Translations under genes and position numbers: made by a program
The notes under the pieces: generated by a model
Told to the model about the DNA's origin: nothing
The model's database searches: none
What the model saw: only the letters and a program-made list of their open reading frames with translations
Source: a virus
IMG/VR virus record: IMGVR_UViG_3300045051_000150
Location: 1-24,674 of that record
Direction: 5' to 3' (one strand)
Length of the DNA stretch: 24,674 nt
Shown: positions 3,440-22,072 of the stretch, piece by piece
How positions within the stretch are numbered: the first letter of the stretch is position 1
Layout of the letters: every line of letters starts with the position of its first letter

Positions 3440-4186
3440 TCATCTAACCTGATCAAAGCAGATTTCTTTGAAGAATCCCTCTTTGGGACTACTGACAAGA
3501 GTGACTTTTCCACCGCCATCAATAGTTGGCTTAGCCGCCATAAATGTTTCTCGAGCTCTTTCCCAGTGCGCAAACTCGTCGAAAAAGAGAGCCGAAGCAG
3601 TATATTGAGCCAATTGTCGGGCGCCTTGAGCCACGCCAAGGATGTAATTGTTAAGTCCTGGTACCTCAAAGTGACAATAAGTCCGTTTGATTCTAGGCTT
3701 AAGCATAACGTCGTCGGGGATATGGTTGTAGATAAACTCCACTCTGTCGATGAGCTCATCTGACTTCTCCTCCTTGTCAGACACGAAGAAGACTGATCGA
3801 CCTTCCTTAAACATCACTAGCCAGAGATGCAAGAAGATGAAGAGCCAGGAGATCATCATACGTCGAGATTTGAACAGAGAGATGAGGTCCTCTTGCTGCC
3901 ACTTCCATGCTGTCCATTGGAGCCAGGGATCACAGGGCATTTGCTTTACTGGGTTTATCTTATCAGCTTCGTCCAAAGTCCAGATGTGGCCGTCCTCAAC
4001 CATCGCCCAAGGATTGTCGAAATAGACCTCCATGTTGTGAGCAATGAAGTCAGCTTTGTTAGTAGCTTGACCCCAGTCGAACTTTGGTGATGGCTGCGGT
4101 TCGCTCGCGAGGATCTTCGGCGCAACAAGGCCCTTATGCCTCTCAGCCGCCTGCGGTCCCAGTATGTCGTCAAGTGCATGACCCAT
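3440..4186 (-). CDS. terL: Large terminase, ATPase half
   Basis: This 248-residue ORF corresponds to the N-terminal packaging ATPase of TerL. The Walker A position holds the arginine-rich form KSRRMMIS (about residues 106-113), the Walker B is ALFFDE (199-204), and the coupling motif is VSSP (231-234). I chose ATG 4186 because it overlaps the terS stop as TAATG; an in-frame TTG at 4201 is the alternative. The ORF stops just after motif III at EGFFKEICFDQVR, where an intact terminase would continue into the nuclease linker. The remainder is encoded at 1347-2294. A bipartite terminase assembled from two polypeptides is the simplest reading. Decay is unlikely because both halves keep their key residues. 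Confidence 0.87.
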   Translation of the reverse strand: MGHALDDILGPQAAERHKGLVAPKILASEPQPSPKFDWGQATNKADFIAHNMEVYFDNPWAMVEDGHIWTLDEADKINPVKQMPCDPWLQWTAWKWQQEDLISLFKSRRMMISWLFIFLHLWLVMFKEGRSVFFVSDKEEKSDELIDRVEFIYNHIPDDVMLKPRIKRTYCHFEVPGLNNYILGVAQGARQLAQYTASALFFDEFAHWERARETFMAAKPTIDGGGKVTLVSSPKEGFFKEICFDQVR

Positions 4187-4911
4187 TATTCTCGGCCCCA
4201 ATCACCAGGCATTTGTCTTGGATCCTTAACCCATTCAAGTTCTTGTGGCTGATCAGTATCAGAAGGAGGAGGTTCTGGAGGGCGCGCTGGTTGATGACTC
4301 CCATTAGAGCCCTCAGCAGCTTCTCTGCGCCGCTTATTAAGTTCTCTGATGACGTCCTCGCCGCTGACAACTCCAACAATCCTTCTCTCGATCTTAGAAT
4401 AACCAGCTGTGTCTAGGATCCTTTCAGCGGCAGCCTTCTGGAGAAACTCAGAGCGAGCTGACCTCATTAGAGTTTTGAGCTTATCAAGAGCTTCATTGCT
4501 CATGCTCTCGGCTCTCTGAACGATGTTGAAATCAGCCTCGGATTCCAACTTAGTCAGCTCTGCCCTGAAAAGAGGTGATGTGGCGACTAGCATCACCGTC
4601 TGCTTATGGATGCCCATTGCTTCAGCTATTTCTACATAAGTAGCTCCTTCTAGAATTCTCCTGAGGATCTCTCTGTGTCTGGGCCGCAGCACCGATGGCT
4701 CCCACTTACCATTACTTTCTAAGGCTTTCTGCTCTTCAGCGGAAAGGGGGCCAGGGAGCTCTTTGTTGGCTGTTGAAAGACCGTCTGCTACTAACTGGTC
4801 TAAGTGGTATTCGTCCGGTTCCCGGACAGATGGTCCTGTCGATTGTGATCTCCCATCTACAACGATTGGCCCGAGTGTCGGTAACGCCTGTGGCAACTTT
4901 TCCATTTCCAA
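4186..4911 (-). CDS. terS: Small terminase subunit (HTH protein)
   Basis: The 241-residue protein has a helix-turn-helix at about residues 80-110 (LEGATYVEIAEAMGIHKQTV), followed by TSPLFRAELTKLESEAD and a long helical region ending in AAAERILDTAGYSKIE. This pattern is typical of phage small terminases, which recognise the packaging site and stimulate TerL. The C-terminus is rich in Pro, Glu and Ser and probably disordered. It is the first gene of the leftward block and overlaps the ATPase gene as TAATG. Two close ATGs (codons 1 and 3) are possible starts. One copy of the 17-bp palindrome lies inside the gene (4812-4828). Confidence 0.82.
   Translation of the reverse strand: MEMEKLPQALPTLGPIVVDGRSQSTGPSVREPDEYHLDQLVADGLSTANKELPGPLSAEEQKALESNGKWEPSVLRPRHREILRRILEGATYVEIAEAMGIHKQTVMLVATSPLFRAELTKLESEADFNIVQRAESMSNEALDKLKTLMRSARSEFLQKAAAERILDTAGYSKIERRIVGVVSGEDVIRELNKRRREAAEGSNGSHQPARPPEPPPSDTDQPQELEWVKDPRQMPGDWGRE
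4812..4828. repeat. 17-bp palindromic site, copy 1 (inside terS)
   Basis: GTCCGG-TTC-CCGGAC is a perfect 6-bp dyad with a 3-bp spacer, flanked by the outer A on one side. In terS it encodes Val-Arg-Glu-Pro-Asp. It is one of five copies of TGTCCGGRAACCGGACA in the window. Confidence 0.9.
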
Positions 4912-4980
4912 CTCACACTATCACAAATTATCAGGAAAGTCAACAACTAAAGCGCTCACAATTATGTGAGATAGCTCACA
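4912..4980 (-). promoter_or_regulatory. Candidate leftward (late) control region with GTGAGC operators
   Basis: On the minus strand TTGACT (4943-4938) lies 17 bases before TAGTGT (4920-4915), a weak sigma-70 pair, and GATAAT (4932-4927) is a second possible -10. Just upstream, GCTCAC at 4954-4959, GTGAGA at 4966-4971 and GCTCAC at 4974-4979 alternate in orientation. These belong to the TTGTGAGC family found again near 5.8, 6.05 and 11.7 kb. The layout fits a regulated promoter for terS and the late block. No promoter element is close to consensus. Confidence 0.4.
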
Positions 4981-5007
4981 CAATGTATTTCTAGAGAAGC
5001 GAATCTG

Positions 5008-5075
5008 GGACTCCCCCACCCCTCCTCCCCGCAAAATTCGTGCCAGACCCCCCACGGTAGGGTATGGGCGGTCCT
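5008..5075. other. C-rich segment, candidate packaging (cos-like) site
   Basis: Directly upstream of terS is a strongly strand-asymmetric stretch with C runs (CCCCCACCCCTCCTCCCC), a short AT patch, and ACCCCCCACGGTAGGGT (5047-5063), whose ACCC/GGGT ends form a short dyad. Cohesive-end sites commonly sit next to terS and are often G/C-run-rich. No other feature explains this block. The function is inferred from position and composition only. Confidence 0.3.
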
Positions 5076-5231
5076 GGTAAGTTTCTGGTAGTCCTGGTCA
5101 GTCGCTGGCATTTTGACAGGCATTGACATTTCTGACAATCGTGACGTGTCACAGTGTCAAGTGGCATGGCAGTTCTTGGCATTTGCACGCGCTTGTTGGC
5201 AGTTGCGACCGTTTCAGTTCCGGCATGGCAC
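5073..5231. repeat. Array of TGG/TGGCA repeats at about 10-bp spacing
   Basis: CTGG elements recur with TGG at 5075, 5086, 5095 and 5106, about one helical turn apart. TGGCA elements follow at about 5162, 5167, 5177, 5196 and 5226, along with a TTGACA/CTGACA cluster and the imperfect dyad GTGACGTGTCAC. A shorter array with the same TTGGCAGTT wording occurs at 7391-7443. The phasing suggests cooperative protein binding on one DNA face. The segment does not look coding. Confidence 0.55.
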
Positions 5232-5243
5232 TTGCTATATATA
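5232..5243 (+). promoter_or_regulatory. Candidate rightward promoter (extended -10)
   Basis: TTGCTATATATA contains TGC followed by TATATA, an extended -10 form that tolerates a weak -35. The TGGCA repeats end immediately upstream. Transcription would start near 5250 and read through the hairpin-rich leader into the gene at 5443. Confidence 0.4.
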
Positions 5244-5280
5244 CAAGTTGTCATCAGCAATAACTTAAGAGTTGATGACT

Positions 5281-5384
5281 CCGATGGCGAATCGGCCTAA
5301 CCTGCCGGAATCAGGTTGTGCAAATCCCTAACCGGATGAATGGTGACGCCCTGCACGTAAAAGCCCACTCTGTTCCCTTCGGAA
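5281..5384 (+). ncRNA. Hairpin-rich leader RNA candidate
   Basis: Consecutive short hairpins can be drawn on the plus strand: CCGAT/ATCGG (5281-5285 with 5291-5295), AACCTG/CAGGTT (5299-5304 with 5312-5317), GTGCA/TGCAC (5318-5322 with 5352-5356) enclosing ATCC/GGAT (5324-5327 with 5334-5337), and TTCC-CTTC-GGAA (5373-5384). The segment ends exactly where the 23-bp inverted repeat begins and lies in the 5' leader of the gene at 5443. I do not recognise a known riboswitch or ribozyme. It may be a regulatory leader or part of a mobile cassette. Confidence 0.4.
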
Positions 5385-5406
5385 AGTCCCTCTAAACGAT
5401 CGCTGG
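5384..5406. repeat. Left arm of 23-bp inverted repeat
   Basis: Reads AAGTCCCTCTAAACGATCGC and then TGG. Its reverse complement recurs at 5773-5795 with one mismatch in 23, enclosing the gene at 5443-5757 and its ribosome site. Confidence 0.9.
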
Positions 5407-5442
5407 TCTAATACAAAGCGATTTTTAGGAGATCAAACTTAT

Positions 5443-5757
5443 ATGAAAAGCGTAGTAATCAAAGCATTTAATGGAACTGGGAAAGACAAAGTGTTAGCTG
5501 GCGACCGAACCGTTGACATGCCTGAAACAACTGAGGAAGCCGTTAAGTTGTTCGGCGAGGAAGACACGCTGGATTATATCACCTCGAGTTACACCATTGA
5601 GATACAGCGCCAAATCCGAGCTGGAACCACGATGAGCGCGCGTCAACAACTCCGCGCCTTGGAAGCCTTCGTCAAGGCCAATCCCGAGAGCGAAGTTGCG
5701 AAAACTTTGGAGACTCTTAAAATCACCTTCACCGCTCCAAAGGAAAACGCTCAGTAA
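5443..5757 (+). CDS. First early-region protein, unknown; paralogue of the 11967 gene
   Basis: This 104-residue protein is the first gene of the rightward block. An AGGAG site lies 11 bases before ATG. Residues 27-55 (PETTEEAVKLFGEEDTLDY, then YTIEIQRQIRAG) match the protein at 11967 (PETVEEAVQLFGQGD, then LLDY and YIIDLQREHRD), so the two are paralogues. The fold appears to be an N-terminal beta pair followed by helices. There is no catalytic motif, and I do not recognise the family. The gene lies between the arms of a 23-bp inverted repeat. Its codon use is more GC-rich and CGN-rich than the small genes downstream, so recent acquisition is possible. Confidence 0.82.
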   Translation: MKSVVIKAFNGTGKDKVLAGDRTVDMPETTEEAVKLFGEEDTLDYITSSYTIEIQRQIRAGTTMSARQQLRALEAFVKANPESEVAKTLETLKITFTAPKENAQ

Positions 5758-5772
5758 CATCAACCACTTAGC

Positions 5773-5795
5773 CCAGCGATCATTTAGAGGGACTT
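5773..5795. repeat. Right arm of 23-bp inverted repeat
   Basis: CCAGCGATC-A-TTTAGAGGGACTT is the reverse complement of 5384-5406, with a single mismatch at 5782. It begins 16 bases after the stop codon of the enclosed gene. In RNA the arms could close a long stem around the whole coding region; in DNA they could be element ends. Confidence 0.9.
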
Positions 5796-5800
5796 GAAAT

Positions 5801-5891
5801 GTGAGCGATTGTGAGCGCTTGTGAGCTTGACATCTGAGTGCGCGTGTGTTATTGTGAGCTATTGTGAGAAATAACACGCTCGCTCGCTCAC
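5801..5891. repeat. TTGTGAGC repeat cluster, iteron-like
   Basis: GTGAGC begins at 5801, 5811 and 5821 at exact 10-bp spacing, again at 5854, with GTGAGA at 5864, then GCTCAC in reverse at 5886-5891. GTGTTATT (5846-5853) and AATAACAC (5870-5877) form a perfect 8-bp dyad around the middle pair. Direct repeats at helical spacing are typical of initiator or repressor arrays. No gene is seen in 5758-6122. Confidence 0.75.
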
Positions 5892-5956
5892 ACGCTGTAT
5901 CCCCCCAGCCCGAGAAGTTTGTAGTACGAAGTCCACTCAGAATCAGTTCGTAGTAG

Positions 5957-5998
5957 TTCTCTTATTAAAAAAAAAAAAAGAAAAAAAAAATAAGAGAA
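5957..5998. other. A-tract bounded by 8-bp inverted repeats
   Basis: TTCTCTTA (5957-5964) and TAAGAGAA (5991-5998) are perfect inverted repeats around TT, 13 A, G and 10 A. GTGAGC clusters lie on both sides. This could be a DNA-unwinding element of an iteron-type origin, or a leftward terminator (a hairpin with a long T run on the minus strand). Homopolymer length in such a stretch may also be affected by sequencing error. Confidence 0.6.
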
Positions 5999-6050
5999 AA
6001 TTTGAAATGGTAGTCATATCTCGAAGTGGGCGAGCGTCTGGATACAGAGC

Positions 6051-6079
6051 GTGAGCGAGTGAGTGTGAGAGTTGTGAGC
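6051..6079. repeat. TTGTGAGC repeat cluster, right of A-tract
   Basis: GTGAGC at 6051, GTGAGA at 6065 and GTGAGC at 6074 repeat the motif of the 5801-5891 cluster at 9-14-bp steps. The cluster is followed 13 bases later by a 17-bp palindrome. Confidence 0.65.
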
Positions 6080-6091
6080 GTTAGAACGATG

Positions 6092-6108
6092 TGTCCGGGA
6101 ACCGGACA
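6092..6108. repeat. 17-bp palindromic site, copy 2
   Basis: TGTCCGGGAACCGGACA is intergenic, 15 bases before the start of the gene at 6123. It sits where an operator could control that gene cluster. Confidence 0.92.
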
Positions 6109-11098: not shown

Positions 11099-11339
11099 GG
11101 CTGAGGAGGAAGATATTTACTTACAGGCAATACCACTTGAGTATAGAGACTTAGCCATAACATTGGTAGCTGTGATTGGGGCTTGGACACTATTCAAGAA
11201 CCATCACAACATAGAAGATCCTAATCTCAAGTGCTGTGAGGAAACTAAGCGTCTTTTTGAGGCACTAGATATACTTAGGATAGAGACAGCTACGGCCTAT
11301 AAAAGTTTCCTTGCAGATATTAAACAGAAAGGACACTGA
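11061..11339 (+). CDS. Small single-pass membrane protein
   Basis: The 92-residue product starts at ATG 11061 after GAGGAGG, overlapping the previous gene by 38 bases. An acidic N-terminus is followed by a hydrophobic segment (LAITLVAVIGAWTLF, about residues 31-45) and a soluble helical tail with a CC pair (KCCEETKRLFEALDIL). A single transmembrane helix is likely. Function unknown. Confidence 0.66.
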   Translation: MAEKGDRSTNRGEAEEEDIYLQAIPLEYRDLAITLVAVIGAWTLFKNHHNIEDPNLKCCEETKRLFEALDILRIETATAYKSFLADIKQKGH

Positions 11340-11340
11340 A

Positions 11341-11565
11341 GTGGCAAAGCCAGGAATCGTCGTAGAAGATTATGAGAATAGGTGCGATTACATCTTCCCA
11401 GACAGTGGAGAGCGGTGCTGGCTCCAGCCTTGCAAAATCGTCAAGCTGCCAGGCGGTAAGATCAGAGGCCAATTCTGCTCATACCACTATGAGGTCGGCC
11501 TATCGGCGATAGCTCAGAGAATGCATGAGGTTCTAAATGATGGAAAGGAGAGTGATAAGCTATAA
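11341..11565 (+). CDS. Small C3H-type zinc protein, GTG start; paralogue of the 6456 gene
   Basis: GTG 11341 is chosen because AAAGGA lies 9 bases upstream and the preceding gene stops at 11339; the frame is open to 11311. The 74-residue product has C15, C26, C46 and H49 in the same C-D-[WY]-x-[YF]-P...C...[FY]-C-x2-H layout as the protein at 6456. Both paralogues flank a region with a 17-bp palindrome and GTGAGC repeats, so the pair probably arose by duplication with its control DNA. Confidence 0.72.
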   Translation: MAKPGIVVEDYENRCDYIFPDSGERCWLQPCKIVKLPGGKIRGQFCSYHYEVGLSAIAQRMHEVLNDGKESDKL

Positions 11566-11577
11566 GTTAGAGGCGTC

Positions 11578-11594
11578 TGTCCGGAAACCGGACA
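11578..11594. repeat. 17-bp palindromic site, copy 3 (beside DnaA-box array)
   Basis: TGTCCGGAAACCGGACA is intergenic and ends 16 bases before the first DnaA-like box. Its position next to the origin-like array recalls how parS-type and origin sites can lie together. Confidence 0.93.
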
Positions 11595-11610: not shown

Positions 11611-11684
11611 CTATCCACAGCTTATCCACAAGTTATCCACATGTTGGTAACTCTGTGGGTAAGTTGTGGGTAACCTGTGGAGAG
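11611..11684. other. Symmetric array of six DnaA-box-like 9-mers, candidate replication origin
   Basis: Three boxes point right: CTATCCACA (11611), TTATCCACA (11622) and TTATCCACA (11633). Three point left: TGTGGGTAA (11654), TGTGGGTAA (11665) and TGTGGAGAG (11676). Each set has exact 11-bp spacing and all pairs are centred on 11647.5. Two boxes equal the bacterial DnaA consensus and the others differ by one or two bases. No ORF fits here. An origin or a DnaA-titrating/regulatory site is the likely role. Confidence 0.85.
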
Positions 11685-11687
11685 GAA

Positions 11688-11705
11688 TTGTGAGCGTTTG
11701 TGAGC
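11688..11705. repeat. TTGTGAGC direct repeats
   Basis: TTGTGAGC occurs at 11688-11695 and 11698-11705, exactly 10 bp apart, immediately right of the DnaA-box array. The motif is the one repeated near 5.8 and 6.05 kb. Confidence 0.75.
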
Positions 11706-11754
11706 TTCTTATCAATTGACTTTGTCTTCCCGATGTGTTATGTTGGGAGTTGAA

Positions 11755-11970
11755 ATGATGAACGATGAGTTTGACGAAAATCACTTTGAGCTTGGCTCTT
11801 GTGAAATGTGTGGCAGGTCGGATGTTCCCATCTGCCCAAAGTGCCATCATCGAGCTCCACATGGTATGACTCCAGGAACTTGGCTACCTTGTTGGTGTGG
11901 AGGTATGGGGCCAACTGGTTTAGAACATCTTCTCAGTAATGTTATAAAGGAAGGAGGTGATAAAAAATGA
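11755..11970 (+). CDS. Small multi-Cys zinc protein
   Basis: The 71-residue product starts at ATG 11755 (a second ATG follows) after GGGAG. It has C16-x2-C19, C27-x2-C30 and a later CWC (46 and 48), with several His, so one or two zinc ions could bind. The C-terminus reads KEGGDKK because it spans the ribosome site of the next gene. It is the first gene right of the origin-like array, in the place that the zinc-ribbon gene at 6123 holds after the left repeat region. Confidence 0.7.
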   Translation: MMNDEFDENHFELGSCEMCGRSDVPICPKCHHRAPHGMTPGTWLPCWCGGMGPTGLEHLLSNVIKEGGDKK

Positions 11971-12402: not shown

Positions 12403-12591
12403 ATGAGCATTCTAAAAGAAGGACAGAAAAGCGTCAGGGTTGTCCTGCCAGACGATTTATATGCCTTGCTCAAGAAGGAGTGTCCCGATCATGGAGACAT
12501 GAGCAAGCTAATCAGAAAACTTCTCATTAAGCACTTAGAAGGATTGAGAGAAGATGGGGATCGGCCCAAATCAGACCAGCCTTCTACATAA
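12403..12591 (+). CDS. Ribbon-helix-helix DNA-binding protein
   Basis: The 62-residue product matches the RHH fold: strand KSVRVVLPDDLYALLKKE (about residues 9-26), then helix DMSKLIRKLLIKHLEGLRE. RHH dimers bind short inverted or direct repeats, so this is a candidate reader of the GTGAGC, TGG or palindrome repeats. The start follows GAGGGATA. It lies just after the stem-loop at 12325 and overlaps the next gene by 38 bases. Confidence 0.76.
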   Translation: MSILKEGQKSVRVVLPDDLYALLKKECPDHGDMSKLIRKLLIKHLEGLREDGDRPKSDQPST

Positions 12592-12895: not shown

Positions 12896-13107
12896 GTGAG
12901 CGAGATAAACCTATTGGAGTTATTGTTTGTAGTCGAAACATGGAAGAGGTTACTTTAGCCTGTGAACAAAAGGCAGAAACCGCATTATCTATATTATTTG
13001 ACTTTGGTGACAAGGAAGCATGGATTCCTAAATCACAGATCCTCCATTCTGGGACTAATGAGATTGATATTCCTGAGTGGCTTGCTAGAGCGAAGGGACT
13101 AATCTAA
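12892..13107 (+). CDS. Small replication-module-associated protein of unknown function
   Basis: The 71-residue product has an FDFGDKEAWIPKSQIL core and an IDIPEWLARAKGL end. I recall this W-[IL]-P-[KR]-S pattern from small phage proteins next to polymerase, helicase and nuclease genes, with no known function. It overlaps both neighbours (ATGA, then TAATG), so it is co-translated with the nuclease gene. Confidence 0.72.
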   Translation: MSERDKPIGVIVCSRNMEEVTLACEQKAETALSILFDFGDKEAWIPKSQILHSGTNEIDIPEWLARAKGLI

Positions 13108-14147
13108 TGACGGAAGCCACTCCAATTACAGAACTTAATGCAAGTGACATATCTAAGCCTGAGGTAGTCAAAAACCTCGCGGCTGAAATTGATTTATCTA
13201 AAGCGATGATAGTCGACGCGCATCTCCTCAAAACCTACCGAGCTTGCGAAATGAAGTTTTGGTGGTTTGAGGAACAGCATGTCATTGCAAAGGGAAAAGC
13301 TGCTGCCCCTGGCTTTGGCATTGCTATGCACTCCGGTATTGAGTGGTTCAGGCGCTCCAAGATGGATGGGCGTACTTACAATGATGCCTTGAAGATTGGG
13401 GCCGGCCACCTGATCCACTCATACCAGGAGTCAATGCCAACTGAAATGAAACAGGAGGTGATGCAGGATGATAAGCGATCACTCAACAATGCCCTCCGAA
13501 TTTACCAAGGCTATTGTGAACACTACGAACCATTCGGGCTTAGATTCCATTACATCGAGATCCCATTTGCTCTATACCTTGGACAGATTGAGACTGATGG
13601 AGGCGCTAAGGACGTCGTCTATGTTGGGATTATTGATGGAGTTCTTGAGATGCACGAACGACTCTACGTCAATGACCTCAAGACAACATCTTGGGTTGTT
13701 TCAGAACAGTGGCTAGAAGGCTTCAGAATGGATCAAGGCCTTTGTGGCTATACAATTGCTGCTCGTGAACTGCTAGGTGTCGATACTCAATACGCATTAG
13801 TCCACGGAATCTGGGTTCAGAAAGAACCTAAAACTAAAGGGGCTAAAAAGATTGATGAGTATTTCAAAACCAAAGAGATCTACTGGTCTGATTCCCAGTT
13901 GGCTCAGTGGCATCGTAACACCTTACGAACTGCCTATAGAATTGAGATATCTCGCCAAAGGAATGACTGGCAAGAGGACTGGGGTCAGAACTGTGGAGCT
14001 TTTGGAGGATGTTCTTACCGTGCTCTTTGTAGCGCTACTCCTGAGTTTAGAACTAAATTGATTGATTTAGATTACGAGCGCGCTGTCTGGACTCCATTGG
14101 AAGACGAGCGCCTACAGAAAATGAGCATGGAGGCTCAGAATCTCTAA
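13107..14147 (+). CDS. Cas4/RecB-like PD-(D/E)XK nuclease with probable iron-sulfur cluster
   Basis: The 346-residue protein shows the RecB-type nuclease motifs in order: H75 (GIAMHSGIE), E151, D177 (GIIDGVLE), D190-x-K192 (NDLKTT), then Q210 and Y215 (DQGLCGY). C47 in the N-terminal part plus C296, C302 and C308 near the end would hold a 4Fe-4S cluster, as in Cas4 and AddB nucleases. It would trim or open DNA ends for recombination. Its neighbours (Sak4-like ATPase, ssDNA-binding-like protein) support a recombination role. No CRISPR array is present, so a link to Cas4 adaptation is not implied. Confidence 0.88.
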   Translation: MTEATPITELNASDISKPEVVKNLAAEIDLSKAMIVDAHLLKTYRACEMKFWWFEEQHVIAKGKAAAPGFGIAMHSGIEWFRRSKMDGRTYNDALKIGAGHLIHSYQESMPTEMKQEVMQDDKRSLNNALRIYQGYCEHYEPFGLRFHYIEIPFALYLGQIETDGGAKDVVYVGIIDGVLEMHERLYVNDLKTTSWVVSEQWLEGFRMDQGLCGYTIAARELLGVDTQYALVHGIWVQKEPKTKGAKKIDEYFKTKEIYWSDSQLAQWHRNTLRTAYRIEISRQRNDWQEDWGQNCGAFGGCSYRALCSATPEFRTKLIDLDYERAVWTPLEDERLQKMSMEAQNL

Positions 14148-14326
14148 TGAGTTATGCTTACAATAAAGCTAAAGAGACGCGTAGAAGGTACTGGAAAAAA
14201 CACCCTAAGCGAGGCCACGGACAAGGATACCACCATCCAAGACTCACTCCCTCTGAGAAGCTCAGAAATCTTCTGGGCGCTTTTTCACGAGGTGTGGGGG
14301 GAGAGCAAGGAAGGGAAGTACGATAA
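14147..14326 (+). CDS. Small very basic ORF overlapping the nuclease stop
   Basis: ATG 14147 overlaps the nuclease stop as TAATG. The 59-residue product is Arg-, Lys- and His-rich (ETRRRYWKKHPKRGHGQGYHHP, spread over residues 10-31), with a helix (TPSEKLRNLLGAFSRG). It occupies almost the same bases as the ORF at 14154 in another frame. Coupled starts favour this frame at the 5' end. Both may be used. Confidence 0.45.
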   Translation: MSYAYNKAKETRRRYWKKHPKRGHGQGYHHPRLTPSEKLRNLLGAFSRGVGGEQGREVR

Positions 14327-14414
14327 GCGCAAATGGGGTGAACTGCAAGAAATGATTCAAGAACTAGAAAAGAAAGGAGGTGATAAACATGAGTATCATA
14401 ATGATCTTCAATAG
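14154..14414 (+). CDS. Small charged ORF, alternative frame
   Basis: This 86-residue frame has a convincing C-terminal half: SEIFWALFHEVWGESKEGKY, then KWGELQEMIQELEKKGGDK, a probable helix. It ends in the next gene's ribosome site (KGGD). Its N-terminus overlaps the basic ORF at 14147 and has no ribosome site at a usable distance, so the true start may be further inside. One or both frames could be real. Confidence 0.45.
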   Translation: MLTIKLKRRVEGTGKNTLSEATDKDTTIQDSLPLRSSEIFWALFHEVWGESKEGKYDKRKWGELQEMIQELEKKGGDKHEYHNDLQ

Positions 14415-14733
14415 GAAGGTGATTCCATTTCCTCCAGTTGCAGGTGAGAAAGACACTGGAAATGGGAAGGTGGAAGCTGAGGTTGTTGGCTTTATAGACG
14501 GAGAACCTTTCACTCCTGGTATTTTGAAGTTCCCGAACAAGCAGACCTGGACAAAATTCTGGGGCGCCTTGCAACGTGGAGCTCTCCAAGTGCCAGAGTT
14601 AGAGGTCAAGATGGAGAATGTGCCGCCGACTGAGGCAGAACTCAATGGGCAGGCAGCTCCAGCGCCAGACCCAGAGTTGTTAAAGCACACAACTGACATT
14701 CCAGCAGTGAAGTTCATAGGGAAACAGTCATGA
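14389..14733 (+). CDS. Unknown protein upstream of the Sak4-like gene
   Basis: ATG 14389 follows AAGGAGGTGAT (14374-14384); an in-frame GTG at 14380 overlaps that site and is rejected. The 114-residue product opens with a beta segment (SIIMIFNRKVIPFPPV), has a central FVGFIDGE-like strand pair and TWTKFWGALQRGAL, and a Pro-rich acidic tail. No domain recognised. It ends in an ATGA overlap with the recombinase gene and is probably its partner. Confidence 0.74.
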   Translation: MSIIMIFNRKVIPFPPVAGEKDTGNGKVEAEVVGFIDGEPFTPGILKFPNKQTWTKFWGALQRGALQVPELEVKMENVPPTEAELNGQAAPAPDPELLKHTTDIPAVKFIGKQS

Positions 14734-15536
14734 ACGCGAACTTTCTAGGTTTTGATAGGCTACGAAGAAAGGAGCTATCTTTTGTGCCTACGTTAGATGA
14801 AACAGCTGCATCTGATCCTATCAGGGCAGCGGTGTGGGGAGTGAGTGGCTCTGGTAAGACCACCTTAGCAGGGCTAATGGCGGGCTTCGAGGAATTCCGG
14901 CCTGTTTACTTCGCCGACTGGGATCGGCGTATTGTAAGTTTACGGGCTAGGGTTCCTCGGGAGCTATGGAAATATATCATCTCGGACGTCTACACAGATA
15001 CCAACATTCAAGGAGGAGGTTGGACTGCGTTTGAGGCGAAGATGCAACGGATTGAGTCAGAGGGAGTTAGAACTGTTGTCGTTGATTCTATGACCTTCAT
15101 GCTTATGGGAGTCATGAATAGAGTGCTGATGTTAGATGGCATGAAGCCTTCAACGACAAATCCTCAGTTGCAAAATTACCTCTCTCAGCAGTCCATCGTG
15201 AAAGATACCTTACAGAAGCTATGCTCGAAGAAGATCAATGTCATCTGCACCTTCCACGAGGCCAATGACAAGGATGAGTATAGCGGCAGAACCTTCAAAG
15301 CGTTTGCTATTACAGGCAAACTGACAGAGACCGTCCCTGGCTATTACAATGAGATATGGCACTGTGAGATTGCACCAGGAGCTGCTGGCACTGAGCCTGA
15401 GTATGTTATCAGGACGAAAAGTGACGCAGTTTATATGGCCAGGACTACGTTCAAGTCACTGAAGGCGACAGAGAAGCAAGGGGAAATCTGGCCCAAGATC
15501 ATCGCTGAGATGAAAGGGCTAAAGACAGCAGCTTAA
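14730..15536 (+). CDS. Sak4-like RecA-fold ATPase (AAA_24 type)
   Basis: The 268-residue protein has a Walker A GVSGSGKTT (37-45) and a Walker B VRTVVVDS (113-120, D119). The context is typical of the AAA_24 phage nucleotide-binding family, which includes the Sak4 single-strand annealing ATPases. These proteins work with a phage SSB to drive recombination, and an SSB-like gene lies two genes downstream. Length is normal for the family. The start overlaps the previous stop (ATGA). A RecA-core ATPase with a replicative role is the alternative. Confidence 0.85.
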   Translation: MNANFLGFDRLRRKELSFVPTLDETAASDPIRAAVWGVSGSGKTTLAGLMAGFEEFRPVYFADWDRRIVSLRARVPRELWKYIISDVYTDTNIQGGGWTAFEAKMQRIESEGVRTVVVDSMTFMLMGVMNRVLMLDGMKPSTTNPQLQNYLSQQSIVKDTLQKLCSKKINVICTFHEANDKDEYSGRTFKAFAITGKLTETVPGYYNEIWHCEIAPGAAGTEPEYVIRTKSDAVYMARTTFKSLKATEKQGEIWPKIIAEMKGLKTAA

Positions 15537-15554
15537 AAGAAAGGAGGAAGGAAA

Positions 15555-15764
15555 ATGACAGACAATGATCTAGTGAAGATATTCACTTATCATGCACCAA
15601 AGGCTGAGCAGCCAGCTCAGTATGAGGCGTTAAGGGCAGCCGGACTAGAGTTCGCTAGGAAGATCAACGCGCTGTGTCCTGATTGTAGAGAGCGCTCACT
15701 AGCAGTTACTTCAGTGCAGCAGGCTGTGATGTGGGCTAATGCAGCTAAAGCAATTCACGAGTGA
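15555..15764 (+). CDS. acb2: Acb2-like anti-CBASS cyclic-nucleotide sponge
   Basis: The 69-residue protein matches the Acb2 pattern as I recall it: F-x-Y-H-x-P (IFTYHAPKAEQPAQYEALR), a cPD-x-R-E-x-S-L-A segment (CPDCRERSLAVTS, 41-53) and the terminal QQAVMWANAAKAI (55-67). Acb2 proteins form helical hexamers that bind cyclic di- and trinucleotides and block CBASS defence. The start follows AAAGGAGGAAGG. It lies between the Sak4-like and SSB-like genes in the early region, which suits immediate counter-defence. The call rests on remembered motif similarity only. Confidence 0.82.
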   Translation: MTDNDLVKIFTYHAPKAEQPAQYEALRAAGLEFARKINALCPDCRERSLAVTSVQQAVMWANAAKAIHE

Positions 15765-15794
15765 TTTTAATCGAGGAGAAAGGAAAGAAATAAA

Positions 15795-16208
15795 ATGGAC
15801 TTGGATATTAACTTGAATGAGGTAAAGGAAAAGCCTTTACTTCCAGCAGATCGTGAAATGACTATTGCCATCATCAAGGCGGAAGTCAAAATAGCGAAGA
15901 ACGTCAACGCTAAGACAGGGCAGAAAGAGCCTTATGTCAACTGTGAAATGGCTCCTTTGGATCCTGAGTGGGCAGGGCAAGATTACAAGATATATCATGC
16001 CTTTGGATTAACGACAGGCGCGCTATCATCTCCTGACCCGACGTTCTCGATCAAGAAGTTCTTCATTGTCATAGGCCATGATTGGAGGCCAGACGGTAAG
16101 TTCTCGACTGAGGAACTCCAGACACTCAGGTTTATTGGCAAGCTAAAGTATGATGACAAGCGACCGAATTTACCTCAATTAGCGGCAGTCCTGAGAGCTG
16201 CACAGTAA
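15795..16208 (+). CDS. Single-stranded DNA-binding-like protein
   Basis: The 137-residue protein starts after AGGAAAGAAATAAA. It has an OB-fold-like layout: EMTIAIIKAEVKIAKNVN, TGQKEPYVNCEMAPLDPEW, YKIYHAFGLT, and IGKLKYDDKRPNLPQLAAV. The order of an N-terminal E-x-x-x-x-I-I-K-A-E strand, a P-L-D turn and a final F-I-G-K-L-x-Y-D strand resembles phage SSB-type proteins (DUF669-like). Its position two genes after the Sak4-like ATPase fits. No long acidic tail is present. The family call is provisional. Confidence 0.62.
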   Translation: MDLDINLNEVKEKPLLPADREMTIAIIKAEVKIAKNVNAKTGQKEPYVNCEMAPLDPEWAGQDYKIYHAFGLTTGALSSPDPTFSIKKFFIVIGHDWRPDGKFSTEELQTLRFIGKLKYDDKRPNLPQLAAVLRAAQ

Positions 16209-16228
16209 GTAAGATCAGCTAGGTAGGC

Positions 16229-16408
16229 ATGGGATCGGCAACTGGCAGCACCCGATAAAACAAGGGATGCTTAATTCAGTCTAAATTGCCTCATGCTTCC
16301 TGGTTAATAGGGTGCGGCTCAAGGGTTTACATAGGGGCCTCATAAACTCCCTAGCTGGAGCCTTGTGGAGGATGATGTGGCGACTGCGGTGGGTACGTTA
16401 AGCCGTGG
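16229..16408 (+). ncRNA. Structured intergenic RNA candidate
   Basis: The 239-base gap before the ParB-methylase gene has no convincing ORF but several long-range pairings. GCACCC (16248-16253) pairs with GGGTGC (16310-16315). GGCTC (16316-16320) pairs with GAGCC (16358-16362), abutting the first helix. GGGTTTA (16323-16329) pairs with TAAA (16343-16346) and TCCC (16348-16351) across a small bulge. It is more GC-rich than flanking DNA and is followed by AAAAGGAGGAG and ATG. It could be a leader regulating the fusion protein or an independent small RNA. I do not recognise a known family. Confidence 0.45.
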
Positions 16409-16447
16409 CCCCGTCCCTAATTGACCATCAAAAGGAGGAGAAACTAA

Positions 16448-17869
16448 ATGGCAGAAGAAGCAATTGCAGTAGAAAACAAAACACCACCTATCAGTATGAT
16501 CAGCTTAAGATCAATCTTGATCCCTGCTGACAGACAACGACAGAAGATCAACGAGGCCAAGTTGAGTGAACTAGCAACATCAATTCAAGCTCATGGCCTA
16601 ATGAATCCCATAGTAGTTTGTCCACTTGATCGTGTCCGGTTCCCGGACGTTCCGCCTCACATCACTTACCAGATCGTCGCTGGCTACCGACGTTACTGCG
16701 CTTACGTCAAACTCAAACGATCAGAGATCCCTGCTACCATGAGGGATGACGTTACTGATCGCTTGGACCAGGAGGAAATGGAACTCGACGAGAACTTGAT
16801 GCGCGAGAACCTATCGTGGCAGGACGAAGTTGTCGCTCGAAAGCGTATCTCTGAGATCAGGGCCAAGAAATATGGAGAAGGCATAAGAGATGTTGCTGAG
16901 CATATTGGTGAGTCCAAATCTGAGGTCTGGGAGGACGTCCGCTTAGCAAAGGCAATGGAAGTTCTACCGGAATTAGGTGAGTCAAAAAATAAAACTCAAG
17001 CTCATAACAAGTTGCGCTTATTGATGAGGCGCCAGGATTTAACTCTCAAAGCTGCTGCGCTGCAGATGGAGGCAGCTAAAGGCACTGATCACCTTGAGGG
17101 TATTGAATTCAAAGTTCACTTAGGCGACTGCTTACAGATCACTAAGAACTGGGTTGATGGTTGCTTACGTTGCGTCATTACTGATCCTCCTTATGGAATC
17201 AACTTGGATGAGGGTGAGACCAAGAAAGGCTCTCCGCATCCAACCATCTATGACGATGCAACTTATGACATAATGGACTTGACTGCTAGAATGGTCAAGG
17301 AGGCTTATCGCCTGCTAGGAGACAACACCCATGCCTACTTCTTCTTCGACATCAAACAGTATCCCAAAGTCTACAAAATGCTCTCAGACGTTGGATTTAC
17401 AGTTGAACCTATCCCACTTCTGTGGGTCAAACCGGGGCCTGGCCAAGTTAATCATCCAGACACTCGGTGGGGTTCAGGCTACGAAGCATGCTTCTTTTGC
17501 CGTAAAGGTAACCGTGCCTTGCTACGGCAAGGGCAATCAAACGTCCTCGCTCATGATCCTGTGCCATCTAATAAGAAAGTCCATCCCGTCGAGAAGCCAG
17601 TTAGTCTCCTTCGGCAACTCATTGAGACTTCAACAGCGCCTGGAGAAACTGTTGCAGATTTCTTTGCCGGGTCGGGATCGCTGGGAGAAGCTGCTATTCA
17701 GACAGGCAGAAATTTTCTTCTATGTGAAAAAGACCCAGCTTACCACGCCGGGATTATTGAGCGACTTAGAAAAGTCCTTGGCGCTGATCCAACTGCCGCA
17801 GTTCAAGAAGCTCCAGCAAGCCCAGCCAGCAAGTACGATCCCTTGGGCGGTGATGAGGAAGATGAGTAA
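16448..17869 (+). CDS. ParB-domain / beta-class DNA methyltransferase fusion
   Basis: The 473-residue protein joins two domains. Residues about 18-165 are ParB-like: LRSILIPADRQRQKINEAKL, AGYRRY (78-83), and ENLMRENLSWQDEVVARKRI, followed by an HTH-like segment (IRDVAEHIGESKSEVWED). Residues about 220-445 are an N4/N6 amino-methyltransferase in beta order: DPPY at 246-249 first, then HPVEKP (379-384) and the SAM loop DFFAGSGS (404-411). Such fusions occur in phages and mobile elements and modify DNA. A 17-bp palindrome lies inside the ParB part (16633-16649). It overlaps the polymerase gene by one base (TAATG). Confidence 0.9.
   Translation: MAEEAIAVENKTPPISMISLRSILIPADRQRQKINEAKLSELATSIQAHGLMNPIVVCPLDRVRFPDVPPHITYQIVAGYRRYCAYVKLKRSEIPATMRDDVTDRLDQEEMELDENLMRENLSWQDEVVARKRISEIRAKKYGEGIRDVAEHIGESKSEVWEDVRLAKAMEVLPELGESKNKTQAHNKLRLLMRRQDLTLKAAALQMEAAKGTDHLEGIEFKVHLGDCLQITKNWVDGCLRCVITDPPYGINLDEGETKKGSPHPTIYDDATYDIMDLTARMVKEAYRLLGDNTHAYFFFDIKQYPKVYKMLSDVGFTVEPIPLLWVKPGPGQVNHPDTRWGSGYEACFFCRKGNRALLRQGQSNVLAHDPVPSNKKVHPVEKPVSLLRQLIETSTAPGETVADFFAGSGSLGEAAIQTGRNFLLCEKDPAYHAGIIERLRKVLGADPTAAVQEAPASPASKYDPLGGDEEDE
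16633..16649. repeat. 17-bp palindromic site, copy 4 (inside the ParB-methylase gene)
   Basis: TGTCCGGTTCCCGGACG keeps the full GTCCGG-N3-CCGGAC dyad and encodes Val-Arg-Phe-Pro-Asp in the ParB domain. If the fusion protein binds this site, it may affect its own gene. Confidence 0.9.
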
Positions 17870-20403
17870 TGCCAACAGTTGAATGTCCACCAACTATCAA
17901 TCCTGGAGCTTTAATCACCTTCATCGGTGAAGCTCCTGGAGGTCAGGAGGTTTCTTGGCATGAGTGCCCCAGATGTAAAAGAGGAATTAACTACCCAGGA
18001 CTTTGTAAAGATTGTGGTGCCCCTCGCATCCACCACCCTCAAGGTTTCGTGGGAGGGTCAGGCAATCTACTTCGAAAAGCATGTAGAAATGCTAACATCA
18101 ACTTTGATGGCTGCAATCGTTCCAATGTATCAAAGCGCCGTCCTCCAGGAGATAACTTTAGCGTTTTCTACAAAGATCCCAAGCGACGTAGAGAACCGAC
18201 GGAAGAGCTCCTTTGGTGGCGTGAACTACTTTTGGCGGAACTCCGACGGTACAGGCCCAACGTCGTGGTTGCTCTCGGTAATGAAGCTCTTAAGACTTTA
18301 TGCCCAGGCGCCGACGGCATCACTAAATGGCATGGAAGTATCCTTACTAGCCCAGTTGTTGACGGACTTAAAGTCATACCCGCCCTACACCCAGCATACA
18401 TAATGAGGGATAATTGGGAGTGGTATTACATACTAATCAGACAACTCAAGCGCGTCGCAGTTGAATCAACCGCTCCTCGTATCCTTCAGAAGGAGCCAGA
18501 AGATGTCTTTGTCATTGCACCTAGATTGGAAGAAGTCGTTGGGTTTCTCCGGTTTATTGGTAGTTCCAAAGAGCCGTGGACACTTGATGTTGAAACTGTC
18601 GGTGACACGCTACGGTGCTTTGGACTATCGAGTTATGCCAAGCCACAGTACGCTCTCTGCGTCCCTATTCAGAAAGCGTCTGGCCCAGCATGGAGTGTGG
18701 TGGAAGAGAGTATCGTTTGGCGAGAACTCAGCCTTGCTATGCAAGCGAATACTCTACTTGAGAATCAGAATATTATTTATGACCTTGATTACCTCTTGGA
18801 CTACGGTGCAGAGCCAGGAGGGATCAACTTCGATCCAATGCTCGCAATGAATGTCGCTTATCCTGAATTTGATAAGGGACTAGATTTCACTACCATGCTT
18901 TACACCTTCTATCCTTACTACAAGGATGAGGGAAAGACCTGGAATAAGAAAGAACCTGATGAGAAAACTTTCACCTACAACTGTAAAGACATGGTGGCAA
19001 CTCCAAGAGTCGCGCAAGCAATCAAGAGGGATCTCAATGAAGCTGGACTCACAGAATGCTACAGAAAACGAGTTAATCGTCTGCTACCAGTCGCTCTTGA
19101 AATGCAACGGAATAGATTACGTCTCGATCGCAGTTGGCATGAACGACTGGGCACTATCCTTAAAACTGAGCGAGAGTTGCGACAGCAAGAGCTTGATAGA
19201 ATTACTGGGAGAGCAATCAACGTCAAATCTACTCCTCAAATCGCTGCTCTTCTATATGAAGAACTTCGGCTTCCTGTCAGAAAAAAGAGAGGCTCAGATG
19301 CTATCACAACCGACGAAAATACACTTAGAGAACTCAGGGCGGGTCATCCTAATATACCACAACTGAATATGATCCTAGAGATCAGGCATCTTAGAACGAA
19401 AGAGAGTAATTATATCAATGTGGACTTTGATACTGATAGTGATGGTGAACACTATCTCGGCTACATGGCTTGTGTTAGTGTTGCTAAGTCTGGGAGGTGG
19501 GCGTTTAAGCAAAGCCCTAAATGGCGCGGTTCTTCACCTCAGACTATCCCAAAGATTATGCGACTCATGTACAGTCCGCCACTACATTCAGTCTTTTGGC
19601 AGCGAGATCTTAGCCAGGCTGAGGCTCGCATTGTTGCTTGGCTTTCTGATTGCAAGTTTCTCTTGTCTGTTTTTGCTTCTCCAATTAAGATCCACAAGGT
19701 CGTCGGTGGCGCCATTTTCAGAAAGCTGCCCAATGAGATCGAGTCCGACTCCCAAGAGTATGACATTGCTAAGCGAGTAGTCCATGCTTACAACTACATG
19801 ATGGAGTATAAGAAACTAGCAATAACTGCCAACGTGCCATTTGACTTTGCAAGGATGACCTATGACCAGTACGCCAGACAAGTCCCAGAAATCCCTCAAT
19901 GGTGGCAGTGGACAAAGCAAGAAGTCCTCTCAAAAGGACGTCTTGTTACACCTATGGGAAGGGTTAGACAAACTTATAAGGCGGCATCCGCTCTCACCAA
20001 CACAGGCCAGATGCCTGATGAAGTACTTAGAGATTTGGTATCTTACGTACCGCAATCCACTGTCCCAGACGTCCTCAACGAGTCAATGTTTGAACTCTGG
20101 GAAACCTGCCCCTGGGTCAAGTGGCACCAACAAGGTCATGATTCTTTCCTTGCGAGTGGCCCTCCCGAGCGGACTGAGGAGTTCTTTCAGCGTTCTGAAG
20201 AAGCTGCAGGGAAAGTCCATTTTACTATCCATGGAAAAGACTGCCATATCCCAGGGGAGTTCCAGTGGGGCTACAGCTGGGGAGCAATGCTGGCGTATAA
20301 GGTCGGCGAAGACGTTTCCTATGAGGCATGGAAAGAGCGAGCAACTCGAGAAGGTTGTTTTAAGGAAGAGAAAATAAAAGAACGATTACTGTCAATGGCT
20401 TAA
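17869..20403 (+). CDS. UDG / 3'-5' exonuclease / family-A DNA polymerase fusion
   Basis: The 844-residue replicative polymerase has three domains. Residues 1-200 form a family-4-like uracil-DNA glycosylase: GEAPG (20-24), GFVGGSGNLLRKA (59-71), KRRPPGDN (89-96) and HPAYIMRD (174-181). A zinc-ribbon-like insert (CPRC...CKDC, 33-49) splits the first two motifs. Residues about 220-400 are a proofreading exonuclease with D240-x-E242, D305 and Y370...D374. The rest is family-A polymerase: motif A RDLSQAEAR (D580), motif B around K635/Y643, motif C GHDSF (D758). Motif B has His and Met where Phe and Gly are usual, and motif C has HDS rather than HDE. Confidence 0.92.
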   Translation: MPTVECPPTINPGALITFIGEAPGGQEVSWHECPRCKRGINYPGLCKDCGAPRIHHPQGFVGGSGNLLRKACRNANINFDGCNRSNVSKRRPPGDNFSVFYKDPKRRREPTEELLWWRELLLAELRRYRPNVVVALGNEALKTLCPGADGITKWHGSILTSPVVDGLKVIPALHPAYIMRDNWEWYYILIRQLKRVAVESTAPRILQKEPEDVFVIAPRLEEVVGFLRFIGSSKEPWTLDVETVGDTLRCFGLSSYAKPQYALCVPIQKASGPAWSVVEESIVWRELSLAMQANTLLENQNIIYDLDYLLDYGAEPGGINFDPMLAMNVAYPEFDKGLDFTTMLYTFYPYYKDEGKTWNKKEPDEKTFTYNCKDMVATPRVAQAIKRDLNEAGLTECYRKRVNRLLPVALEMQRNRLRLDRSWHERLGTILKTERELRQQELDRITGRAINVKSTPQIAALLYEELRLPVRKKRGSDAITTDENTLRELRAGHPNIPQLNMILEIRHLRTKESNYINVDFDTDSDGEHYLGYMACVSVAKSGRWAFKQSPKWRGSSPQTIPKIMRLMYSPPLHSVFWQRDLSQAEARIVAWLSDCKFLLSVFASPIKIHKVVGGAIFRKLPNEIESDSQEYDIAKRVVHAYNYMMEYKKLAITANVPFDFARMTYDQYARQVPEIPQWWQWTKQEVLSKGRLVTPMGRVRQTYKAASALTNTGQMPDEVLRDLVSYVPQSTVPDVLNESMFELWETCPWVKWHQQGHDSFLASGPPERTEEFFQRSEEAAGKVHFTIHGKDCHIPGEFQWGYSWGAMLAYKVGEDVSYEAWKERATREGCFKEEKIKERLLSMA

Positions 20404-20413
20404 AGGGGGTGAA

Positions 20414-20635
20414 ATGAACAAGCGCGCTAGAAATTCACTAATCCGTATCTATCAGGCCAAAGTTAACTATTACAGGGCCATGATGGTTACTTACCAAGAA
20501 AAACTGGATCAATTAAAGGAGGAAGATGATGACTCCAGCACGTCACAGACGGTTCAAACTAGAAGCGGAGGAAGCTCTCAGGCATTGGAGCGACAACATA
20601 AAGGCTATGCTTGCAGGCCGCTACGGGAAGGGTGA
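20414..20635 (+). CDS. Small protein of unknown function
   Basis: The 73-residue product starts after AGGGGGTGAA. Its first 37 residues form a convincing basic helix (RARNSLIRIYQAKVNYYRAMM), ending KLDQLKEEDDD. The remaining 35 residues lie over the next gene in another frame and look like low-complexity read-through (SSTSQTVQTRSGG). The overlap is 110 bases. No family is recognised. Confidence 0.62.
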   Translation: MNKRARNSLIRIYQAKVNYYRAMMVTYQEKLDQLKEEDDDSSTSQTVQTRSGGSSQALERQHKGYACRPLREG

Positions 20636-20801
20636 GGTTGGACATATTCTAATCCTTTTCCCTTTTGGCAATGATACCTCAGCAACATGGATCAGTGATG
20701 CAACGCGCCCAGGTGTCGCTAGGATGCTTAGAAAACTGGCTGATCACTTAGATGATCGAAGGGTTATCCTGCCAGGGGATGATAGATTTGGCTTGCAATA
20801 A
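20526..20801 (+). CDS. Small phage protein of unknown function
   Basis: The 91-residue product starts at tandem ATGs after AAAGGAGGAAG. The core (GHILILFPFGNDTSATWISDATRPGVARMLRKLADHL, spread over about 38-75) resembles a small protein seen in many phage early regions, where an FP or FG strand, I-S-N/D and R-x-x-x-x-x-x-L motifs recur; no function is known. It lies between the polymerase and the helicase genes and may be a replication accessory. Confidence 0.72.
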   Translation: MMTPARHRRFKLEAEEALRHWSDNIKAMLAGRYGKGEVGHILILFPFGNDTSATWISDATRPGVARMLRKLADHLDDRRVILPGDDRFGLQ

Positions 20802-20806
20802 CAAAG

Positions 20807-22072
20807 ATGAGAAACCTAGACAATTGGCTGCGCGCGTACATGGAGTATACCTTGGACACGGAGAGTCCATCGTGCTACCACTATTGGACTGGCTGTTCTC
20901 TAATAGCTGCAATCACGAGGAGGCAGATATGCCTAAACTTCAATATGTTCAAGATATACCCAAACATCTACGTGATCCTAGTTGGACCAGCTGGTGGCCG
21001 GAAAAGTATTGCTACTGGCATTGGGATGGCACTTGCGGAAAACGCTGGGATAAGGAAGTTCAGCGACAAGATCACGGCCGCTGCCCTTATCAAAGACTTA
21101 AGCAATGCTATTGAGAAAAAAATTTCCGTAACAGAGAATGGAGGACAGGAGGTTGAAATTGTTTCTCCTGTCATGATCTATGCAAGTGAGCTCGGAGTAT
21201 TCCTGGGCCATGACGCCTATGGAAGTGGAGTTGTCGCGGACCTTACTGACCTGTATGACTGCCCTACTAAGTGGGAAAAGAAAACCATTTCTAGAGATGC
21301 TGAGACTGTCCAGGGACCTTTTATCAATTTTCTTGCTGCGTCGACTACCCAGACGCTTAAGGACGTATTGCCACAAGGAGCAGTTGGTCAGGGTTTCACT
21401 TCGCGTATCCTCTTTGTCTGGGGATCGGGTAGACGACAGAGAGTCCCTATACCGACGTGGAGTGCTGGACACGAAATGCTACAAAAGAACTTAGTAGCTG
21501 ATCTCAAGCATATTGGCAATCTAAAAGGAACATTTCAGTTTAGTGATGATGGCTTCAAGGCTTACAAGAAATACTACATGGAGCACCCTGAGCCTGAGGA
21601 TGAGTATGATGATGAGAGACTTAGAGGTTATGGATCTAGAAAAGATATTCATATCTTAAAGCTCGCGCAGATTCATAGCTTGGCTGACAAAGATCCTCTT
21701 ATCATCACGGAGATCGACATAGCCAAAGCAATCGAAGCTGTTGTTTGGTTAGATGAAGGATTACCTAACGTCTTTGCAGGACATGGAACAGCTACTAACT
21801 CTCAGGACGTGATTAGAGTTTTCAGGCAGATTGAGGCAGCAACTGCAAGATTTGGTTATGTCAGCTATCCAGAGTTACTTAAGCGGAATTATAGTTATTG
21901 TAACGCGCAGGAGTTTGCGAGTGTTCTTGACACATTATTGCAGTCCAATGCCATCACTGAGACAATCGCAAAGGATCCAAAATCAGGAAAAATAGCGAAG
22001 ATCTTCAGGATTGAGGATCCTAGCTTCATACAAAAATGGCAAGGGAATATGCCGAGAGGATTAGGAAGATGA
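20807..22072 (+). CDS. DUF3987-type P-loop ATPase, probable helicase
   Basis: The 421-residue protein has a Walker A variant GPAGGRKS (60-67), a likely Walker B or sensor region VMIYASELGVFLG (about 123-135), and LAASTTQTLKDVLPQ near 178. The order, spacing and C-terminal winged-helix-like segment (SYPELLKRNYSYCNAQEFASVL) match DUF3987 proteins, the helicase or primase-helicase ATPases of phages and mobile elements. It would unwind DNA ahead of the polymerase two genes upstream. No primase Zn domain is seen. The ribosome site is weak (ACAAAG). It ends in an ATGA overlap. Confidence 0.82.
   Translation: MRNLDNWLRAYMEYTLDTESPSCYHYWTGCSLIAAITRRQICLNFNMFKIYPNIYVILVGPAGGRKSIATGIGMALAENAGIRKFSDKITAAALIKDLSNAIEKKISVTENGGQEVEIVSPVMIYASELGVFLGHDAYGSGVVADLTDLYDCPTKWEKKTISRDAETVQGPFINFLAASTTQTLKDVLPQGAVGQGFTSRILFVWGSGRRQRVPIPTWSAGHEMLQKNLVADLKHIGNLKGTFQFSDDGFKAYKKYYMEHPEPEDEYDDERLRGYGSRKDIHILKLAQIHSLADKDPLIITEIDIAKAIEAVVWLDEGLPNVFAGHGTATNSQDVIRVFRQIEAATARFGYVSYPELLKRNYSYCNAQEFASVLDTLLQSNAITETIAKDPKSGKIAKIFRIEDPSFIQKWQGNMPRGLGR

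Follow-up and report, generated by a model that had tools for sequence, protein, structure and literature searches.

A conserved DnaA-box cluster ahead of phage replication genes as a possible site of promoter control by host DnaA

The window, the 24,674-nucleotide stretch of IMG/VR virus record IMGVR_UViG_3300045051_000150 analysed here, carries a single cluster of DnaA boxes, at 11611–11684, and two related phages (L085 and L118) also have a cluster at the corresponding site, in each case ahead of a promoter-like sequence. Based on this comparison, we propose that the array is a cluster of host-DnaA sites that would control the promoter of the phage replication genes, a reading to which we assign a probability of roughly 0.45. 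The conserved features are the cluster and its place; the symmetric geometry of the array is not conserved. The array is ordinary in kind and useful in detail, its exact form having no copy elsewhere in the viral collection.

The box array and its surroundings

The array is intergenic, located between an ORF at 11311–11565 and a small ORF starting near 11755. The features of this region are as follows.

11579–11593, + strand: 15-bp palindrome GTCCGG-AAA-CCGGAC immediately 5' of the boxes; five such copies are scattered over the window
11611–11619, + strand: DnaA-like box 1, CTATCCACA, one mismatch
11622–11630, + strand: DnaA box 2, TTATCCACA, exact
11633–11641, + strand: DnaA box 3, TTATCCACA, exact
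11642–11650, − strand: extra near-box inside the array, TTACCAACA, two mismatches
11654–11662, − strand: DnaA-like box 4, TTACCCACA, one mismatch
11665–11673, − strand: DnaA-like box 5, TTACCCACA, one mismatch
11676–11684, − strand: DnaA-like box 6, CTCTCCACA, two mismatches
11686–11706, + strand: two operator-like TGTGAGC motifs at a 10-bp pitch, AATTGTGAGCGTTTGTGAGCT
11716–11744, + strand: sigma70-like promoter TTGACT-N17-TATGTT, a consensus match with TG before the second hexamer
11755–11970, + strand: small cysteine-rich ORF directly 3' of the promoter, 65% identical in L085
11967–12314, + strand: conserved ORF of 115 aa, 75–77% identical in both relatives
13107–22072, + strand: co-directional replication genes (exonuclease, Sak4-like annealing protein, ParB-methyltransferase, PolA-type polymerase and DUF3987-type primase/helicase)

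The initial annotation had described three right-pointing and three left-pointing TTATCCACA-like 9-mers at an 11-bp pitch, and their coordinates, strands and pitch were all reproduced. The six boxes therefore stand, but the complete 3+3 picture is broken by the seventh, weak box on the − strand at 11642, absent from that annotation. The common centre reported for the box pairs is present but does not count as separate evidence, since two three-box arms of equal pitch will be mirror-symmetric for any gap. What the geometry does show is an equal pitch of 11 bp, with both arms facing inward.

Clustering was scored as box quality weighted within 90 bp and compared with 150 Markov-1 simulated sequences. 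The array scored 32, against 5 for the next best site of the window and a simulated maximum of 13. Several near-matches to TTATNCACA are clustered here above the chance level. Overall, the window has an ordinary number of boxes (84, with 69.5 ± 8.7 expected), so that only their clustering is unusual. The predicted identity of the 9-mers as DnaA boxes, also proposed earlier, is supported by the consensus, the clustering and the syntenic cluster in the two relatives, and the occurrence of TTATCCACA arrays with an 11-bp pitch at chromosomal oriC also supports this identity; matches were scored against TTATCCACA, a consensus that may not be that of the host DnaA.

The palindrome upstream of the array belongs to a separate set of repeats. 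Exact copies of GTCCGG-N3-CCGGAC start at 4813, 6093, 11579, 16634 and 22952 of the window (five copies, 0.01 expected), with six in the L085 phage and three in the L118 phage (counted in loci L107/L108/L109 and L122/L123 besides the window) and none in the unrelated loci fetched. The place beside the cluster lacks the palindrome in both relatives. Their spacing of several kilobases, together with the ParB-like protein of the phage, suggests that these copies are putative parS-like sites.

Conservation of the cluster and of the adjoining promoter region

The relative L085, a 45.1-kb contig, was found through the polymerase (77% identity), and L116/L118, a 43.4-kb contig, through the 115-aa ORF behind the array (75% identity). 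L116 and L118 are the same over the compared region and were counted as one, giving three distinct phages including the window. Searches with the exonuclease and Sak4 peptides yielded no close relatives, and no nucleotide match to the window was detected among annotated phages.

Both relatives contain one cluster only, at the syntenic site. In L085, it comprises four right-pointing boxes at 3667, 3676, 3687 and 3699 (pitch 9/11/12; score 18, next best 8, simulated maximum 14), and in L118, one right-pointing box at 5763 and five left-pointing boxes at 5774, 5787, 5799, 5811 and 5823 (pitch 11–13; score 24, next best 7, simulated maximum 13). Exact consensus boxes number two in the window and one in each relative, and the altered boxes of the relatives, TTATCAACA and TTATGCACA, are DnaA-box-like variants. 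Conservation of the same array in relatives had been proposed as a check, and it holds for the cluster and its site but not for box number, direction or pitch. The further suggestion of a defined nucleoprotein complex, drawn from the exact symmetry, is not supported, given the arrangements of four right-pointing, or one right- and five left-pointing, boxes. An exact symmetry, however striking, can arise by accident in a single genome, and it is the cluster and its place that recur.

In all three phages, the boxes are followed in the same order by TGTGAGC, a TTGACW promoter-like sequence and the conserved small ORF or ORFs, so that the DnaA boxes hold a conserved place relative to a predicted promoter. 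The promoter-like site of L085 (3729, TTGACA-N17-TATGTT) has the same place and form as that of the window, and that of L118 begins with TTGACA at 5861, followed by a weaker −10, TAATGTT. The distance from the last box to the −35 is 31 bp in the window, 21 bp in L085 and about 29 bp in L118, the promoters being consensus matches. The window and the L085 genome each contain a single TTGACW-17-TATGTT, and the L118 form also occurs once. Given that one to two promoter matches this good are expected by chance per 700 bp, the weight of the match comes from the position common to the three phages. This conserved promoter adjoining the array, which the first reading of the sequence had missed, suggests a regulatory role.

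The window and L085 have AATTGTGAGCG in identical form, and TGTGAGC is also present in L118; we take AATTGTGAGCG to resemble a lac-operator half site. The TTGTGAGC motif has eight copies in the window (1.1 expected), at 4954–6079 and 11688–11705, and its runs at a 10-bp pitch adjoin promoter-like sequences, also on the reverse strand of L122–L124. The motif is probably a phage operator.

The small cysteine-rich ORF was not seen at the equivalent place in L118. Replication genes lie downstream of the cluster in the window and in L085, and the terminase small subunit gene is leftward at 4.2–4.9 kb, 6.7 kb from the array. The replication module resembles those of 44-kb phages, among them Desulfofustis phage LS06, Microcystis phage Mel-JY34 and Pseudomonas phage PaMx41, with proteins about 23–31% identical. 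No such box cluster was found in distant phages with the same module (OP947158, PP438425, MW202554, MW202489 and PaMx41), so this replication module does not require the arrangement. An ORF at 17.1 kb in the L085 phage matches the profile of the array-adjacent 115-aa ORF (E = 2e-5).

Promoter control and competing explanations

DnaA is an established transcription factor, and it stimulates the lambda transcription that serves oriLambda and the lambda replication proteins (PMC8203912), which makes lambda the precedent for this reading. In the phage studied here, host DnaA would bind the boxes cooperatively, and the adjoining TGTGAGC operator would probably be used by a phage regulator. Bound DnaA would act, positively or negatively, on transcription starting at the TTGACW promoter 31 bp past the last box, and one transcript, assuming an operon structure, would reach the replication genes. 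Expression of the exonuclease, Sak4, ParB-methylase, polymerase and primase would in this way be tied to free or ATP-bound host DnaA. Promoter control is the most economical reading, and the roles of the array may combine. The free variation of box number, direction and pitch among the relatives is what one would expect of a regulatory cluster and not of a fixed initiation complex. Counting against promoter control are the weak −10 in L118, the number of distinct phages, only three, and the 8 of 28 other phage arrays that are placed between convergent genes, a setting in which a promoter is not expected (based on crude ORF calls). If host DnaA does control the promoter, replication of this lineage would be tied to the initiation switch of its host, and the conserved promoter region is a small, directly testable piece of DNA.

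The main rival, less probable than promoter control, is that the array is the replication origin of the phage, or one of several, at which DnaA on the inward arms would open the helix, perhaps assisted, as at oriLambda, by transcription starting at the adjacent promoter, and bring in a helicase. Inward-facing DnaA-box arms at an 11-bp pitch are known at chromosomal oriC, the E. coli oriC contains a pair of arrays that point in opposite directions (PMC4285127), and the cluster is unique in each genome, within an early region leading to the replication genes. However, the geometry is not kept in the relatives, the phage encodes its own primase/helicase, and near 5.8–6.1 kb a rival candidate site combines an A-tract and TGTGAGC repeats with an inverted repeat. 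Among the marks of an oriC-type region, the DnaA-box cluster is present and a switch in strand composition is not. The skew inflection near 11.6 kb that the initial annotation had suggested looking for did not appear: cumulative GC skew runs straight through the array site in the window and both relatives, without a turn, and skew at 4-fold sites of rightward genes is alike to the left and right (−0.25/−0.22 in the window, −0.28/−0.19 in L085). The minima of cumulative GC skew lie near 5 kb, 17 kb and 19–20 kb (window and two relatives), and leftward genes have a coding-strand skew similar to that of rightward genes; since skew follows gene direction, it is a weak test of origins and says little. 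The window lacks a distinct AT-rich unwinding element, its local maximum being 63% AT (92nd percentile), and the maximum by the L085 cluster is 70% (99.7th percentile), hence a mixed picture on this point.

The remaining explanations are less probable. Quite unlikely, in our estimate, is that the boxes are operators of a phage regulator, such as the small, possible ribbon-helix-helix protein at 12403–12591, and that their likeness to DnaA boxes is coincidental. This protein has a weak, sub-threshold RHH_5 match (E = 0.035) and a homologue in L085, and the TGTGAGC repeats show that phage-type operators are present in the region; against this, two boxes are exact TTATCCACA, the same 9-mer recurs at an 11-bp pitch in dozens of unrelated phages and in oriC, and the changed boxes of the relatives are still DnaA-box-like. 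We consider it slightly less likely again that the array is a DnaA sink, in which phage copies would bind host DnaA and lower host initiation, with no local role. Titration needs only number and affinity, and four to seven boxes per genome, free to vary in orientation and spacing, would suit it; yet any location would do for a sink, and the cluster holds one place before the promoter-like sequence in all three phages, with few exact consensus boxes (two, one and one). An RNA hairpin, formed by the inverted repeat in a read-through transcript and acting in attenuation or termination, is very improbable. The window strand forms a very stable fold (−46.9 kcal/mol, z −7.8), but any inverted box array folds, no T-run follows the array and the array is upstream of the promoter. 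The hairpin was rejected on the relatives: L085 lacks the fold (z −0.2), and L118 has only a weak one (z −2.4).

Several other conserved elements were observed in the window. The region with a long A-tract at 5875–6107 is also present at 17520–17735 of L107 and on the reverse strand of L122–L124 near 24.7 kb. In the window, a 28-nt inverted repeat (5875–5902/6040–6067) and TGTGAGC repeats flank it, and in two of the three phages it lies near the GC-skew minimum; it is an alternative origin candidate. A strongly conserved non-coding block at about 5300–5380 (about 16865–16945 in L107; GGATGAATGGTGACGCCCT...CGTAAAAGCC) may possibly encode a structured RNA and gave no Rfam match. Another 28-nt inverted repeat (93%; 5384–5411 and 5768–5795) flanks an ORF at 5443–5757, and a similar arrangement is visible in the L085 phage.

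DnaA-box arrays in other phages and in known systems

Arrays of the form TTATCCACA-NN-TTATCCACA followed by TGTGG within 8–20 bp were detected in 81 viral contigs, 49 of them distinct by neighbourhood. Across these 49 arrays, same-direction boxes peak at 11, 22 and 33 bp, leaving out the selected pair, and inward-facing boxes show start-to-start peaks at 12, 23 and 34 bp, a ladder shifted by one; the inner inward distance of the window, 21, is off this ladder. No strict 3+2 inward 11-bp array was found in other IMG/VR contigs, indicating that the exact form is rare though looser arrays are common. Three contigs of the genome collection contain the strict inward 2+2 form. Two of them are chromosomal oriC, in a dnaA-gyrB gap of Treponema (L105) and a dnaA-dnaN gap of Eubacteriales (L106), with genes recognised from translations; the third is a 3.2-kb contig. 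Pitch statistics for Treponema-phylum genomes were dropped, as these were too few to use. A 47-base array query, run with a permissive E-value cutoff of 10, matched 323 records of annotated phages.

The neighbourhoods of the other viral arrays were not enriched in replication genes, and terminase was seen instead. The terminase large-subunit gene, terL, was detected with phrog_2 or phrog_38 in 26 contigs (handles G073–G116) of 45 distinct array contigs. In 14 of these 26, the array was upstream of terL at a distance of no more than 1.5 kb, compared with 4.0 expected and a maximum of 12 in 20,000 random placements, many contigs being short fragments and relatedness being controlled only at the array neighbourhood. 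We regard this pattern as a lead, to which the array of the window, 6.7 kb from terS, does not belong. In NC_042009.1 (119910–121187, L113) and related Streptomyces phages, the boxes occupy a gap of 1.3 kb that contains no genes and separates convergent gene blocks. This gap is some 11 kb from the right end, and a promoter would not be expected there. From placements ahead of the replication genes in the present lineage and up to 1.5 kb upstream of terL in many unrelated phages, one might speculate that DnaA-box clusters are a general phage device for sensing host replication state, the level or exhaustion of free DnaA timing operons or end-of-genome events, but we consider this unlikely. Arrays upstream of terL would raise a general question on DnaA in phage biology.

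The literature found on phage DnaA boxes was limited to the T5 injection stop signal, one Ori-Finder prediction in a Pseudomonas phage and a review of DnaA in transcription. The T5 signal (PMC13250531; AY543070 checked) likewise has DnaA-box pairs, at a 12-bp pitch, in a phage non-coding region; its boxes lie in the long terminal repeat at 9.4–9.5 kb, whereas the present array is not known to lie close to a genome end. With regard to such a genome-end location, the L085 cluster sits mid-contig, and the window is itself a fragment. Chromosomal oriC (Treponema L105, Eubacteriales L106; E. coli, PMC4285127) shares the inward-facing TTATCCACA boxes and the 11-bp pitch, but the phage array lacks a nearby dnaA, a clear unwinding element, a skew turn and conserved geometry. 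DnaA-regulated bacterial promoters such as nrdAB (PMC8203912) similarly have several boxes in the promoter region of DNA-synthesis genes; the array differs in preceding phage genes, in having more boxes and in lying at least 31 bp upstream of the −35. In the lambda pR/oriLambda region (PMC8203912), set beside the array from its literature description and with no sequence relation claimed, host DnaA acts, as proposed here, on phage early-region DNA, where transcription serves the replication genes and the origin. Compared with lambda, the present phage has a tight cluster of six to seven boxes upstream of the predicted promoter.
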